Part shown: piece after piece, positions 54,781 to 61,449 of the stretch
Position numbering within the stretch: the first letter of the stretch is position 1
Layout: the number at the start of each line of letters is the position of its first letter
Origin: Gammaproteobacteria bacterium
GTDB taxonomy: Bacteria; Pseudomonadota; Gammaproteobacteria; Pseudomonadales; Azotimanducaceae
Direction of reading: 5' to 3'
Assembly: GCA_012269545.1 (NCBI GenBank)
Contig: JAAXKB010000039.1
Span: 91,670 to 155,669, forward strand
Length of the DNA stretch: 64,000 bases
Notes under the pieces: model-generated
The model's input: the letters and a program-made list of their open reading frames with translations, nothing else
What the model was told of the DNA's origin: nothing
The model's database searches: none
Position numbers and translations under genes: made by a program

Positions 54781-54807
54781 TAAAGAAGGGAATTTGCGGC
54801 CCGACTT
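54781..54807 (+). promoter_or_regulatory. Sigma28 promoter of flagellin 1
   Basis: TAAAGAAG-N11-CCCGACTT. Confidence 0.75.
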
Positions 54808-54888
54808 AGTTTCTGTCGCAAGAAGCGATTCGCGGTTGGTTCGCAAGGGCCCCGCTTACGCAACAGTAACTTAGAAAGGAGAAGACTT

Positions 54889-57060
54889 ATGTCTTTAGTT
54901 GTAAACACCAATGTGAGCTCATTGACTGCTCAGCGGGCTCTTGCTTTTGCCGACTCTCTGCAGGGTGAGGCCATGACTCGACTCTCTACGGGCAGCAAAA
55001 TTAATAGTGCATCTGATGACGCTGCCGGCTTGGCAATCGCCTCTCGCATGACAGCACAAGTTAATGGCCTAAATATGGCGGTTAAAAACGCCAATGACGG
55101 CATTGCTCTCACTCAGTCGATAGAGGGCGCCCTCGTCGAAGTGTCTGACATGCTGCAACGCCTTCGGGAACTTGCGGTTCAGGCCTCAAACGACACCAAC
55201 ACAGATTCAGACCGAGCTTTCATTCAAGAAGAAGTGAATCTCCTGATTGCTGAAATCTCGCGAGTATCTAGCAACACTAGATACAACGGGCAGCTTGTTT
55301 TGGATGGGACCTTTAGCAGCCGCCAAATGCAGGTGGGCACTGAGGGCGGCGAGACGATCGCGTTGTCAATCGATTCTGTGTCTGCAAACCAGCTTGGCGC
55401 GTATCAAATCGTTGGAGAGCGCGTTGAGGCCCAGCTTGGCACAGGTGGTGGCGCCTACGACAATATCACTGACGCCGGCGATGACCTGATAATCAACGGA
55501 AACAGTCTGTCTAAGACCATTGACGTCGGTGTGAAGGATTCTGCAAAGGCCGTGGCTGCCAAGATTAACGCTGTATCTGGCGAGACAGGCGTTACCGCGG
55601 AAGCAAAAACGTACGCGTTGCTCTCTAGTGAGTATGCCACAGATCAAACCTACAGCGTCCGAATCAATAACAAGACGACCGGGTCTTTTGTTATCAGCAA
55701 TTCCAACGTGCTCGATGCCGTTGACAAGATTAATGCCATCTCGGGTTCCACAGGAGTAACGGCAACCGCCACGACAGAGAATAAAGTGCGGCTTTACAGC
55801 GCGGATGGTTCTGACATCCTGGTCGAGAACGAAAGCACTGGCACCGCTCTTAAAGTTCAAACAGTGGGTCATGATGGCGAATCCGTCCAGCCATCCAAAT
55901 ACTGGCACCATGCGTTAGCGGCTGACGCTACAAACAACTACGGCCTAGGTGTAGCCAATGGAACTTACACTGTAAAGCAGTTATCTACAGGCCAGGAGTA
56001 TTCGTTTACTCTTGCAGCAGCCACGACACGAGAGCCGACGATCGCTGAGCTAGAATCGGCCATCAATGGCGGAACCGGATTGTCCGGATTCAAGGTAGTT
56101 GACAACGCGAATCAAGCTAACGCGTCCAGCGCTTACGTGACGGCGTCGGAAGGATTTGGGGCTTTTGAGATCTACTCAGGCACCGATACCTCTGTTGCTG
56201 CAAACAAGCAAACCTTTAGTGGCTATTCAACAGTGGCTCAGTGGGATATGACGCACGCCGATGCGCCTGCTCACACTGGAGGTGAAACAACGAACTTTAT
56301 TCTCCGCAACAACTCAACTGGTGTTGATTACTCGTTCTCGGTAACGGTAACAGGCACAAATGAGGCGACTGCGGCTCAAGTTCAGACTGGCTTAAACGCC
56401 ATAACTGGCCTTTCCGGATTTGTTGTCGACAGAACAAACGGCGCAGCTACTACTCTGGATATTTGGGGACCCGCTGATTTTGGCGATTTCACATTCCTAA
56501 AGGCCGACGGTACCGCCGCCGGAGGCGCCACTTATCAAGCCGGTGACTTGAACGGTTTTGACGTTGCGTTGGCAGCGGCTTCAGGCAACGATTCCGCGAC
56601 TGTTCAAGGTACGATAGCCCTGAATTCTAGCAAAACATTCTCTGTCTCCCAGAGTGATGAAGCTAGCGGGGCTGTTACCGACCCTGCGGTTGCGACCGGT
56701 AGCTTGGCGAACGACAACTACTTTGTGACTCGGTCCTCAGCGTTGAACACTGTGTCCAACGTTGATTTTAGGACCCAGTCCGGTGCTAGTTCCGCCCTGT
56801 CAGTGCTAGACGGTGCAATCGAGAAAATTTCTTCAATGCGCGCCACTCTCGGTGCAGTGGAGAACCGTCTCGATCATGCGGTGTCTAACCTGATGAACAT
56901 CTCGGAAAACACGGAAGCGGCTCGCTCTCGTATCCAAGATGCGGACTTCGCTGCAGAATCAGCAAAATTGGCAAAAGCACAGGTGCTTAAGCAAGCTGGC
57001 GTGGGCATGTTAGCCCAAGCTAATGCTGGTTCTCAGCTAGTGCTTCAACTACTTCAGTAA
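54889..57060 (+). CDS. Flagellin 1 (723 aa, long central domains)
   Basis: Flagellin N-terminus MSLVVNTNVSSLTAQRAL...RLSTGSKINSASDDAAGLAIA; C-terminus RIQDADFAAESAKLAKAQVLKQAGVGMLAQAN. Confidence 0.97.
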   Translation: MSLVVNTNVSSLTAQRALAFADSLQGEAMTRLSTGSKINSASDDAAGLAIASRMTAQVNGLNMAVKNANDGIALTQSIEGALVEVSDMLQRLRELAVQASNDTNTDSDRAFIQEEVNLLIAEISRVSSNTRYNGQLVLDGTFSSRQMQVGTEGGETIALSIDSVSANQLGAYQIVGERVEAQLGTGGGAYDNITDAGDDLIINGNSLSKTIDVGVKDSAKAVAAKINAVSGETGVTAEAKTYALLSSEYATDQTYSVRINNKTTGSFVISNSNVLDAVDKINAISGSTGVTATATTENKVRLYSADGSDILVENESTGTALKVQTVGHDGESVQPSKYWHHALAADATNNYGLGVANGTYTVKQLSTGQEYSFTLAAATTREPTIAELESAINGGTGLSGFKVVDNANQANASSAYVTASEGFGAFEIYSGTDTSVAANKQTFSGYSTVAQWDMTHADAPAHTGGETTNFILRNNSTGVDYSFSVTVTGTNEATAAQVQTGLNAITGLSGFVVDRTNGAATTLDIWGPADFGDFTFLKADGTAAGGATYQAGDLNGFDVALAAASGNDSATVQGTIALNSSKTFSVSQSDEASGAVTDPAVATGSLANDNYFVTRSSALNTVSNVDFRTQSGASSALSVLDGAIEKISSMRATLGAVENRLDHAVSNLMNISENTEAARSRIQDADFAAESAKLAKAQVLKQAGVGMLAQANAGSQLVLQLLQ

Positions 57061-57096
57061 TAGCTCACCCCTTTAGCTATCTACATACTGAAACAT

Positions 57097-57127
57097 AAAC
57101 CGCCGGGGCTTCCCCTGGCGGTTTTTT
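57097..57127 (+). terminator. Rho-independent terminator after flagellin 1
   Basis: AAACCGCCGGGG-CTT-CCCCTGGCGGTTTTTTT. Confidence 0.85.
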
Positions 57128-57272
57128 TATGCCTGAAAATATCGCACCCTCGGATCGTGCGATCCAATACCAGTAAGCAGGCTCCAACTCACGCCGCTAT
57201 CGCCCATAACTACAGCTACCGGCCTTGGAGTCTTTTCGCTGCAAGTTTTTTTACTTTTTTTCAAAATATTCC

Positions 57273-57299
57273 TAAAGATTTTTTCAACCCGCCCGATCA
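57273..57299 (+). promoter_or_regulatory. Sigma28 promoter of flagellin 2
   Basis: TAAAGATT-N11-CCCGATCA. Confidence 0.82.
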
Positions 57300-57308
57300 C
57301 CCTCTTGA

Positions 57309-57360
57309 AACCGGCAATTTATTGCCGCTTTCGTTGCCGAGCGGCAAGTAATTGCCGGTT
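57309..57360. repeat. Long inverted repeat (21-bp arms) in the flagellin 2 leader
   Basis: AACCGGCAATTTATTGCCGCT - 10 nt - AGCGGCAAGTAATTGCCGGTT, two mismatches in 21. Confidence 0.9.
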
Positions 57361-57505
57361 AGCAGCAACTTAACCAGTTGCGAATGCGGTGGGCGCCTTT
57401 AGCGGGGTGCCCTTCTACGAGGGCCTTTAGCGGGGTCTTCGGCTAAATGGTTGGGGTCATCAACCGTATGACGCGGCTATCTAAAACTATTTAGAGGCTG
57501 ATGTT

Positions 57506-58324
57506 ATGAGTTTAGTCATAAACACAAATGTTGCATCGTTGAATGCACAAAGGTCTTTGACTGCTTCCGGAGCAGAATTAAAGACAGCTATGGAACGTCT
57601 CTCTTCAGGCAAGCAAATCAACAGCGCCGCCGACGACGCTGCAGGTTTTGCTATTGCCGAGAGAATGACGGCCCAAATTCGGGGTCTGAACATGGCGACC
57701 AAGAATGCCAATGATGGTCTTTCTATGCTCGCCACGATTGAAAACGCGACAAACGATGTCACGGACATGTTGCACCGTATGCGAGAGCTAGCGGTACAAG
57801 CGATCAATGACACGAACGGTGTTCAAGACCGACTATATCTGGACGGTGAAGTTCAGGCGTTAAAAGCCGAAATCAATCGGGTATCTAGTGATACGCAGTA
57901 CAACGGATCGAACACATTGGACGGCTCGCTGGCCAATTCATCGATTCAAGTTGGCACGGAATCTGGTCAAAACATCAGTTTCTCTGTCGCTGCAGTGGAC
58001 ACTGCTACGCTGGCCATTGATTCGATTGACGTAACCGATGGTACGAATGCGGCCACCGCACTCAGTGCTATCAGTGCCGCAATTGAAACCGTAGCCGGCA
58101 ATCGTGCCGAGTACGGTGCCCTGCAGAACCGTTTGGAATATACGGTCTCAAATCTGATGAATGTTGCGGAATACACCACCGCAGCGCGATCCAGAATTGA
58201 AGATGCCGACTTTGCCGCTGAGAGCGCTCGCTTGGCGAAAGCTCAAGTGTTGCAGCAAACGGGAACGGCCATGCTGGCTCAGGCTAATGCCTCGCAGCAG
58301 CTGGTTCTGTCGCTCTTTCGATAG
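57506..58324 (+). CDS. Flagellin 2 (272 aa, short type)
   Basis: MSLVINTNVASLNAQRSL...MERLSSGKQINSAADDAAGFAIAERM; C-terminal LAKAQVLQQTGTAMLAQANASQQLVLSLFR. Confidence 0.97.
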   Translation: MSLVINTNVASLNAQRSLTASGAELKTAMERLSSGKQINSAADDAAGFAIAERMTAQIRGLNMATKNANDGLSMLATIENATNDVTDMLHRMRELAVQAINDTNGVQDRLYLDGEVQALKAEINRVSSDTQYNGSNTLDGSLANSSIQVGTESGQNISFSVAAVDTATLAIDSIDVTDGTNAATALSAISAAIETVAGNRAEYGALQNRLEYTVSNLMNVAEYTTAARSRIEDADFAAESARLAKAQVLQQTGTAMLAQANASQQLVLSLFR

Positions 58325-58350
58325 GGGCGACCGACGGCTTTAGCCGTTTT

Positions 58351-58397
58351 ATCGGGTGCCCTTGACCAGCCGTTGGTCCAGGCCACCCGATTTTTTT
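58351..58397 (+). terminator. Rho-independent terminator after flagellin 2
   Basis: ATCGGGTG...CACCCGAT followed by T7. Confidence 0.8.
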
Positions 58398-58605
58398 CCT
58401 GAACACCAATCTGGCGAGACGTCTAAAATTCAGGTCCAGCCAGCCCTCGCTAAATACCATTACCCGCCCATTTTTTTCTCTCACTGTCTTCTCAGTGCCT
58501 TTATCCGCCGACGGCTCAGACCTGCCTTGGGAGCACCTTAAGCCCGAGGCGGCAAGGTTATTCCGCTTGGTCGGAAAGTTTTTGCCGCTTTTGCCGCTTT
58601 TTTTC

Positions 58606-58632
58606 TAAAGATTTGCCGCTTCTCCCCGACTA
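58606..58632 (+). promoter_or_regulatory. Sigma28 promoter of flagellin 3
   Basis: TAAAGATT-N11-CCCGACTA. Confidence 0.8.
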
Positions 58633-58671
58633 CTTGTCTGTACGCGGCAATAACCTGCCGCTTTGGAACGA

Positions 58672-58715
58672 AACCGGCAATATGCGACCGCTAATGAGGA
58701 CACAGATTGCCGGTT
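58672..58715. repeat. Inverted repeat in the flagellin 3 leader
   Basis: AACCGGCAAT - 24 nt - ATTGCCGGTT, same outer arms as the flagellin 2 leader. Confidence 0.85.
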
Positions 58716-58765
58716 CAATAACAACACAGATGGGTCTTAACCATCCAACATGACAGGGGTCTGTA

Positions 58766-59581
58766 ATGAGCATTGTAGTAAATACCAACATCGGTTCTTT
58801 AAACGCGCAGCGATCACTCGCTGAATCTTCTCGTGAACTGTCCACCGCCATGGAACGTCTCTCTTCTGGCAAGAAAATTAACTCAGCTGCGGACGACGCT
58901 GCAGGCTTCGCTATTGCAGAACGCATGACCGCTCAGGTGCGCGGCCTGAACATGGCGACTAAGAACGCCAACGACGGCTTGGCTATGCTGTCCACGATTG
59001 AAAACGCGACCAACGATGTGACCGATATGCTGCAGCGCATTCGCGAACTAGCCGTGCAGGCAGCCAACGACACCAACGGCACGTCAGACCGAACCTACTT
59101 ACAGACTGAGGTCGATTCCTTGGTTGCGGAAATCAACCGGGTGTCCACCGATACTGTCTACAACGATACGGTCGTACTCGACGGCAATCTTGCAGGGTCC
59201 ATCCAAGTTGGTACCGACGCAGGACAAACTATCGATTTCGCGATTGATTCCATTGACGCCACAACGCTCGGTGTTGACGCTCTGGATCTTTCAGATGCGA
59301 CCAATGCCGCAACGGCCTTGACGGCAATTGACACGGCTATTGAACAAGTAGCAGGAAATCGCGCAGGTTACGGTGCTCTTTCAAATCGCCTTGAGTACAC
59401 GGTTTCCAACCTCATGAACGTTGCCGAGTTCACCACAGCCGCTCGGTCTCGTATTGAAGACGCCGACTTTGCCGCGGAGAGCGCGCGCCTTGCCAAGGCT
59501 CAGGTTCTGCAGCAAACCGGTACTGCGATGTTGGCTCAAGCGAATGCGTCTTCGCAACTGGCGATCCAGCTGATCCGATAG
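58766..59581 (+). CDS. Flagellin 3 (271 aa, short type)
   Basis: MSIVVNTNIGSLNAQRSLAESSRELSTAMERLSSGKKINSAADDAAGFAIAERM. Confidence 0.97.
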   Translation: MSIVVNTNIGSLNAQRSLAESSRELSTAMERLSSGKKINSAADDAAGFAIAERMTAQVRGLNMATKNANDGLAMLSTIENATNDVTDMLQRIRELAVQAANDTNGTSDRTYLQTEVDSLVAEINRVSTDTVYNDTVVLDGNLAGSIQVGTDAGQTIDFAIDSIDATTLGVDALDLSDATNAATALTAIDTAIEQVAGNRAGYGALSNRLEYTVSNLMNVAEFTTAARSRIEDADFAAESARLAKAQVLQQTGTAMLAQANASSQLAIQLIR

Positions 59582-59742
59582 GGTCGGTCTTTCAGCTGGT
59601 AAGTACCCTGCTGGGCATTAGGCTCAGCAGGACCTTACTCTGGCCGGGGGCTCACGACCCCTTTAGCTGAAAAGCTGAAGAGCCCCTGGTCCGGGGCCTT
59701 AAAAACCGGCCAAGCCTCAGGAGGTTTGATGCCTTTTTCCTC

Positions 59743-59773
59743 GAAACCCGGTCAGGGGGTCTGATCGGGTTTC
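59743..59773 (+). terminator. Putative terminator hairpin downstream of flagellin 3
   Basis: GAAACCCGGTCAG-GGGGT-CTGATCGGGTTTC; weak T tract. Confidence 0.55.
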
Positions 59774-59794
59774 CGCCTTTATTCAAAAAAAACC

Positions 59795-59821
59795 TAAAGT
59801 TTTCAACCGTCATCCCGACTC
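59795..59821 (+). promoter_or_regulatory. Sigma28 promoter of flagellin 4
   Basis: TAAAGTTT-N11-CCCGACTC. Confidence 0.82.
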
Positions 59822-59961
59822 TTTTCGTGTAAGCGGCAATTTGTTGCCAAAAAGACGGAAAAAAACCGCCATTTTTGCCACCTCATTTGCCGCTACCGCA
59901 ACTAAGCCGCCAAAAAGCGGCAAAGATGTGCAGGTATGTAGATAGCTAAAGGGGTTTAGTT

Positions 59962-61449
59962 ATGGGTATGGTCTTAAACACCAATATCGGTGCAATTCAG
60001 GCGCAGCGAGCAATCACAGAGTCGCGCGAAGAAATGGAGAGCGCCATGGAGCGTTTATCCACTGGTAAACGCATTAACAGCGCTGCAGATGATGCAGCAG
60101 GCTTGGCCATGATCGAGCGAATGAACTCACAAATTCGCGGCTTGACCATGGCAACGAAAAACGCCAACGATGGAATCGCGCTAATCCGTACCGTGGAAAA
60201 CGCATTGGTAGAGGTGTCAGGCATGCTCCAGCGTATGCGCGAGCTAGCCGTGCAATCCGCCAACGCAACGAATTCCGCCACCGAGCGGGCGTTTGCCAAC
60301 AACGAATTGAACCAATTGCAGCTGGAAATCTCTCGTGTTTCGGCCAATACGCGTTACAACGGCACCCAAGTGCTCAACGGAACGTTTTCCGCCAAAGCGC
60401 TCCAGGTGGGCACCATGTCTGGCGAGGAAATCAACTTTACTATCGATTCGGTGGAATCTTCACTCCTTGGCGCTTACGTCATGGTCGGCGAGAACAACCT
60501 GGGCGCCTACACTGCGGCGGCCAGTAGCGCCTTTAGCACGACCACCAACCTAACAGATGATGCCGACGACATTACCGTCGTCGGCAATGGCAATACCCGC
60601 GTGATCGACGTTGCTGCCAATGATTCCGCGAAAGATTTAGCCAAAAAAATCAATTCGGTTGCAGGCGCAACCACGGTTTTTGCTCAAGCTAGAACGTACG
60701 CAAACTTAGCATCCGCGAATGCTACGGCCGAAAATTATCAGGTGACGATTAATGGCACCCAAACGGCAGCCTTCTCCATTTCGAGCAATGACGTCAGTGA
60801 TGCTGTGTCTAAAATCAATGCGATCTTTGCAACGACCGGCGTTATGGCTTCTGCAACCACCGAAAATAAAGTACTACTCACCGACGCTGACGGTGACGAC
60901 ATTCTTATCACAAACGGAAGCTCCGGGACCAGTTTACGCGTTCAAGCCGTTGAAAATGATGGTGTCACAGCACAAACCGCGACGGCGATTTCTCTCGCGG
61001 CAAATGGGGGTAACGATACGTCTCAGGTAGTAGGTACGCTAAGATTGTCATCGTCCTCCGGCTTCACTGTAACCCAGACAAACGGCTCCTCAGACACGTT
61101 TTTTGCCGACGGCACTGCGACCGCGGCCTTGGAGTCAGTTGGCGTTATTGATATTTCAACCCAAATCGGCGCCAGCTATTCCATTGCCACTATCGACGGA
61201 GCCCTAGAGAGGGTGTCTGGCATGCGAGGCTCCTTGGGTACGCTGCAGAATCGTTTGGATTACTCGGTATCGAACCTGATGAAAGTCACCGAATACACCA
61301 TTGGTGCGCGTTCGAGGATTGAGGATGCTGATTTCGCTGCAGAAACGTCGCGCCTTGCCAAAGCCCAAGTTTTGCAACAAGCCGGCGCGTCAATGCTGTC
61401 TCAGGCCAATGCGTCCACAGAAATTGTGCTGCAGGTATTACGGGGATAA
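59962..61449 (+). CDS. Flagellin 4 (495 aa, intermediate type)
   Basis: MGMVLNTNIGAIQAQRAITESREEMESAMERLSTGKRINSAADDAAGLAMIERM; flagellin C-terminus. Confidence 0.97.
   Translation: MGMVLNTNIGAIQAQRAITESREEMESAMERLSTGKRINSAADDAAGLAMIERMNSQIRGLTMATKNANDGIALIRTVENALVEVSGMLQRMRELAVQSANATNSATERAFANNELNQLQLEISRVSANTRYNGTQVLNGTFSAKALQVGTMSGEEINFTIDSVESSLLGAYVMVGENNLGAYTAAASSAFSTTTNLTDDADDITVVGNGNTRVIDVAANDSAKDLAKKINSVAGATTVFAQARTYANLASANATAENYQVTINGTQTAAFSISSNDVSDAVSKINAIFATTGVMASATTENKVLLTDADGDDILITNGSSGTSLRVQAVENDGVTAQTATAISLAANGGNDTSQVVGTLRLSSSSGFTVTQTNGSSDTFFADGTATAALESVGVIDISTQIGASYSIATIDGALERVSGMRGSLGTLQNRLDYSVSNLMKVTEYTIGARSRIEDADFAAETSRLAKAQVLQQAGASMLSQANASTEIVLQVLRG

Follow-up and report, generated by a model that had tools for sequence, protein, structure and literature searches.

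Conserved complementarity between the 3' end of one flagellin mRNA and the ribosome-binding site of another suggests antisense control of flagellin synthesis in the K189A clade

In a gammaproteobacterial DNA stretch of 64,000 nucleotides (the window), the end of one flagellin gene, flagellin 1, is linked to the start of another, flagellin 4, by a perfect inverted repeat. A repeat search of the window gives arms of 22 nt (57067-57088 and 59934-59955) that are 100% complementary and have 2845 nt between them. Judging from the positions of the arms, their conservation among relatives, and the structures and energies predicted for the two RNAs, it is likely that the 3' end of the flagellin 1 mRNA serves as a trans-acting antisense regulator of flagellin 4. 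The pair resembles an RNA switch dedicated to choosing the flagellin that is produced, not a switch that works by DNA inversion. The hosts form a small group of uncultured bacteria that, as far as their clade indicates, are probably marine. The features concerned, all on the plus strand, are the following.

54781-54804, plus strand: sigma28-type promoter of flagellin 1, TAAAG-N15-CCGA (pattern match, conserved in seven genomes)
54889-57060, plus strand: flagellin 1 gene, 723 aa, with the proposed antisense element in its 3'UTR (Pfam Flagellin_N and Flagellin_C)
57060-57080, plus strand: predicted 3'UTR hairpin AUAGCU-CACCCCUUU-AGCUAU, with the anti-SD CCCC in its loop (RNAalifold on 8 genomes; single-sequence fold)
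57067-57088, plus strand: putative antisense arm, 22 nt, complementary to the flagellin 4 SD region (repeat search, conservation)
57097-57128, plus strand: flagellin 1 intrinsic terminator with U tract (stem with two compensated pairs, 8 genomes)
57506-58324, plus strand: flagellin 2 gene, 272 aa, between the arms (Pfam search)
58766-59581, plus strand: flagellin 3 gene, 271 aa, between the arms (Pfam search)
59579-59701, plus strand: structured element in the flagellin 3 3'UTR, a long hairpin (covariance search, structure prediction)
59795-59818, plus strand: sigma28-type promoter of flagellin 4, TAAAG-N15-CCGA (consensus match, conserved)
59934-59955, plus strand: target arm in the flagellin 4 leader, GTATGTAGATAGCTAAAGGGGT (repeat search, conservation)
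59942-59963, plus strand: predicted leader hairpin AUAGCUAAA-GGGG-UUUAGUUAU (single-sequence fold and relatives)
59962-61449, plus strand: flagellin 4 gene, 495 aa, the proposed target (Pfam search)

The two arms sit at the stop of one gene and at the SD of the other. The first begins 6 nt past the UAA of flagellin 1 (57058-57060), behind which UAG provides another stop in frame. The second takes in the flagellin 4 SD, AAAGGGG (59948-59954), and ends 6 nt upstream of the ATG (59962). An earlier, sequence-only reading of this DNA had reported a perfect 22-bp inverted repeat whose second arm overlaps the AAAGGGG of flagellin 4, and it was right about both the repeat and the overlap. It had also considered such a match to be very unlikely by chance in 64 kb. 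This too has held up: among inverted repeats with arms more than 200 nt apart, the longest in the window is 22 nt versus 14-19 nt in 30 dinucleotide-preserving shuffles, 19 being the most that any shuffle reached. Furthermore, the 2.85-Mb genome contains just these two copies of the 22-nt arm when up to 3 mismatches are allowed.

Conservation of the complementarity in related genomes had been proposed as a check, and the pair is kept in all seven species in which both ends are assembled, all of them in the K189A clade of the Pseudomonadales. The relatives with both arms, found by searching the genus and the order, are G012, G024, G025, G034, G021, and G005; each related species is represented by a single genome, in most cases a MAG or another assembly from an uncultured sample. 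Two more genomes stand outside the count of seven: in G001 the 3'UTR copy is present and the contig stops before flagellin 4, and in G011 both genes are present with a break in the assembly between them. In every case, the first arm lies within about 10 nt of the flagellin 1 stop and the second lies over the flagellin 4 SD. When GTDB was scanned with one genome for each species (264 Gb), the exact 19-mer core turned up at these flagellin loci only, the records being titled K189A clade, Pseudomonadales, Gammaproteobacteria, or Proteobacteria.

Within alignment A4, 19 of the 22 pairs are invariant, and 97.4% of the cells pair, compared with 30-47% in slid controls. The exceptions are few: one cell is unpaired in G034, the outermost pair of the 22 is lost in three species, and two pairs at the distal end change on both sides in G005/G021 (A-U to U-A and C-G to A-U). 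Fourfold-degenerate codon sites, in contrast, are near saturation; those of flagellin 4 are 18-38% identical in most genome pairs, and 53% and 69% identical in the two closest pairs. Set against this divergence, the 19 invariant pairs reflect strong selection on the arms. The covariation itself is thin, probably representing a single event in one sister pair (G005/G021), and the co-changes would also fit selection for DNA identity.

Each arm is also part of a predicted hairpin. On the flagellin 1 side, the hairpin starts with the last base of the stop codon, its stem is invariant in 8 genomes by RNAalifold, and a short linker separates it from the intrinsic terminator. On the flagellin 4 side, the SD core GGGG (59951-59954) forms the tetraloop, and the AU of the start codon lies in the stem. 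The loops of these two conserved hairpins, CCCC and GGGG, are complementary, as in those antisense RNA pairs whose pairing begins with loop contact. The predicted energy of a duplex between a 34-nt segment of the 3'UTR and the flagellin 4 leader is -44.5 kcal/mol, the runner-up among 89 start regions of the window being -20.2 kcal/mol, and values of -38 to -45 kcal/mol are predicted across all seven species. In five of the seven, the predicted duplex runs on through AUAGCU/AGUUAU (one G-U pair) to the start codon, in part because both RNAs are hairpins. A genome-wide pattern scan for GCTAAAGGGG followed within 3-12 nt by ATG finds it to recur across species at flagellin 4 only, and in the window's genome the flagellin 1 3'UTR has just a 6-nt match to the SD region of its own gene. 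Taken together, the conservation of both arms and their fixed positions at stop and start argue strongly for the first of two readings originally offered, namely that the 3'UTR pairs with the SD as RNA; the intrinsic terminator and the complementarity of the two hairpins, as predicted, also speak for it.

These observations have led to the following model. The hairpin at the flagellin 1 stop codon would expose CCCCUUU in its loop, and the flagellin 4 leader hairpin would expose the complementary GGGG of its own SD. Once the loops touch, pairing would spread from them into a duplex of about 21-28 bp. Such a duplex would lie across the flagellin 4 SD, extend as far as the AUG in most species, and thus block 30S binding, and the flagellin 4 mRNA caught in it would probably go to decay. 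The active form may be the whole flagellin 1 mRNA or, somewhat more likely, a 3'UTR-derived sRNA of about 70 nt, whose 3' end would be given by the terminator at 57097-57128 and which is possibly helped by Hfq, whose gene is present in eight of nine genomes. In keeping with such an sRNA, the 3' end of the mRNA is closed by an intrinsic terminator and, at the level of sequence, a seed of 19-22 nt faces a ribosome-binding site in trans in seven species. Because the flagellins have sigma28-type promoters in common (see below), their transcripts should appear together; the pairing would then add a post-transcriptional setting of the ratio or the order of flagellin 1 and flagellin 4. That mRNA-to-mRNA pairing orders the subunits of the filament, as was suggested earlier, is a guess.

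The element has no match in Rfam. Covariance models R1 and R2 derive from the conserved set itself, and the E-values of its members are consequently circular. A search for a wider spread with R1 in 196 genomes of the order returned many matches at E-values of 1e-6 to 0.1; six strong matches outside the clade (two in the genus, four in the order) lack the CCCTTTAG seed and were judged to be terminator matches.

The 3'UTR of flagellin 3 contains a second candidate element. Its long hairpin has an eight-base bulge, ACGACCCC, at 59654-59661 that presents GACCCC, and the flagellin 4 SD finds its complement in ACCCCTTTAGCT at 59657-59668. The element is present in exactly the seven genomes that bear the pair, with strong E-values (circular for members of the conserved set), while G030 and G033 give just weak matches with E above 0.6. 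Some of its stem pairs vary yet stay paired (U-G/C-G; G-C/A-U), and in all seven genomes a match of 7-12 nt would allow its GACCCCUUUAGCU to pair with the flagellin 4 SD. This element may act on the flagellin 4 SD too. GACCCC also matches GGGGUC in the SD region of flagellin 3 itself. Farther downstream, at 59743-59773, lies a terminator-like hairpin, present in five of the seven genomes, whose GGGGGUC-containing loop is complementary to the upstream GACCCC bulge; it is a possible internal competitor of the flagellin 3 element.

The remainder of the cluster shows other conserved signals. TAAAG-N15-CCGA promoters of the sigma28 type precede all four flagellins and are likewise found in the stretch before fliS, and the separate sigma28 promoter that had been claimed for flagellin 4 is supported by the consensus match at 59795-59818. 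The flagellin 1 5'UTR (54800-54888) is strongly conserved in seven genomes between diverged flanks, as TGTCGCAA..AGCGATTCGCGG..GGTTCGCAAGGGC, and may be a further RNA structure with a regulatory role. CGGCAA/TTGCCG dyads follow closely on the sigma28 promoters of flagellins 2, 3, and 4 (57309-57360, 58644-58715, and 59831-59848, respectively), and the one before flagellin 4 is conserved in seven genomes; these dyads may serve as operators or form hairpins at the 5' ends of the RNAs. In the flagellin 2 leader (57480-57508), a hairpin, UCUAAA-ACUA-UUUAGA, stands immediately upstream of the SD GAGG and recurs, with varied loops, in all six other genomes that have the region. In three relatives, unrelated genes on the minus strand lie between flagellins 1 and 2 (L078, 7064-8317; L074, 7545-9131; L077, 7358-8893) and encode one cysteine-rich protein and two MFS transporters. 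An MFS transporter (PF13347) lies within the spacer in G012 and G025, and the spacer of G034 has a cysteine-rich protein with a sub-threshold match to PF03692, which we take to be FliB-like.

What else could account for the repeat? The window itself shows one genome only, and from it alone the pair might be put down to chance, a recent duplication, or an assembly artifact. However, both copies are present in separate assemblies of six other species, shuffled windows never reach 22 nt, and the longest 3'UTR-SD match at 26 tandem-flagellin loci from other genera of the order, in two of which no flagellin was scored, is 9 nt; by the conservation of the pair, this explanation appears already refuted and retains next to no probability. 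The second reading originally offered was that the arms are recombination sites at which the 2.9-kb segment inverts, cutting flagellin 4 off from its promoter. Salmonella chooses between flagellins through the hin/fljBA system, in which a serine invertase acts on inverted hix sites and FljA acts post-transcriptionally on fliC mRNA. As in Hin-type systems, inverted repeats flank the segment here, where a perfect repeat encloses two flagellins; recombination would also yield co-change of the arms, and the window's own genome has two serine recombinase genes, on another contig. In contrast to Salmonella, the inverted state is absent from the assemblies: all five contiguous ones, each of which records one state, have the same orientation, with the flagellins all pointing one way. 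A dedicated serine recombinase is also missing from most genomes: PF00239 is absent from seven of eight, four of these seven being 93-97% complete, in a scan that covered PF00239 serine recombinases only. In addition, the spacer ranges from 2.8 to 5.1 kb across species with differing gene content, the conserved hairpin sequence reaches past the repeat on both sides, and the arms are placed exactly at the stop and the SD. An invertible segment is therefore not supported and is scarcely probable; the repeat appears to be kept for touching two RNA signals, not for bounding a segment. It is also very unlikely that the arms are conserved for separate reasons or bind one protein that acts at both places. 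The arms do lie in separate hairpins, either of which could serve a purpose of its own, but an exact reverse complement of 19-22 nt in seven species with two co-changes needs a shared cause, and the arm is non-palindromic, unlike the usual DNA operator.

Other explanations accept the RNA pairing and differ in what it does. Pairing alone does not give the direction of control; the flagellin 4 leader could act on the 3' end of the flagellin 1 mRNA, through stability or by sponging an sRNA, or the duplex could stabilize or activate the flagellin 4 mRNA, as in the known stabilizing mRNA-mRNA pair of hly on prsA2 (PMC8079631). Since the duplex would bury the SD core and often the AUG, repression of flagellin 4 is the simplest outcome, and control in the other sense is unlikely. 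A less improbable, though still doubtful, extension is a circuit in which the 3'UTRs of flagellins 1 and 3 converge on the SD loop of flagellin 4, the former acting by its 19-22 nt antisense hairpin and the latter by its GACCCC-bulge element, and in which masking at the stop codon couples flagellin 1 translation to flagellin 4 synthesis. Since the antisense hairpin sets in at the stop codon, it would be masked by a ribosome that is terminating there; consequently, the regulator's action would be confined to mRNA ends that are untranslated or have been processed. The same masking could count against the antisense model, if the full-length mRNA is the active form, as do the thin covariation, the loss of the outermost pair, and the failure to find ProQ in any of seven genomes. 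Even so, antisense action of the flagellin 1 3' end on flagellin 4 is the reading that we prefer.

Regulators of this general kind have been described elsewhere. The FlaX sRNA of Vibrio cholerae reportedly has flaB as its main target and blocks 30S binding there. FlaX lies inside the flaA 3'UTR, is reported to repress flagellin translation, and is associated with ProQ (PMC12607845, PMC12559287). The likeness is a putative or known sRNA in a flagellin 3'UTR of a bacterium with several flagellins; the differences are that ProQ was found in none of the seven genomes here and that, in the GTDB scan, the exact 19-mer core of the present pair occurs in no other clade. FliX of E. coli likewise originates from a flagellin 3'UTR, that of fliC; it is sigma28-dependent, lowers flagellin, and pairs inside the coding sequences of fliC and of ribosomal-protein genes (PMC10578931), whereas the present match is both long and near-perfect and falls on another flagellin's SD. 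With regard to shared descent with FlaX or FliX, what was seen is that no Rfam family matches and that the exact 19-mer core is confined to this clade. In icaR of Staphylococcus aureus, a C-rich anti-SD in the 3'UTR, UCCCCUG, pairs with the SD and blocks translation (PMC3868564). Although a CCCC anti-SD in a 3'UTR is common to both, icaR uses a short motif on its own mRNA, and the present pair joins different genes over 19-22 nt; self-pairing of the icaR type does not describe the flagellin 1 3'UTR, with its 6-nt match to its own SD region in the window's genome. Across the order, complementarity of flagellin 3'UTRs to their own SDs is at most weakly enriched (mean 5.61 versus 5.41 in permutations). 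In another genus of the order, g8 (L181, L182, L183, and L184), the 3'UTR sequence TCTCTCCTA of one flagellin is a 9-nt exact complement of that gene's SD in four of four genomes, a candidate for icaR-like self-pairing. A parallel in layout is Listeria monocytogenes, where the hly 3'UTR pairs in trans with the prsA2 5'UTR (PMC8079631); there too the 3'UTR of one mRNA meets the 5'UTR of another and whole mRNAs can pair, but the pairing stabilizes its target and does not cover the SD.

Thus, sRNAs from flagellin 3'UTRs and pairing between 3'UTRs and SDs are known already, and what is new, as far as the sequences indicate, is a long, clade-restricted match to the SD of another flagellin. The order and proportion of several flagellins in one filament have so far been explained mostly by promoters. 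At this locus, direct pairing between two flagellin mRNAs is a candidate means of control that is defined in sequence and conserved across species. Alongside FlaX and FliX, it would point to repeated recruitment of flagellin 3'UTRs as regulators of flagellin translation, by way of unrelated sequences in different lineages.
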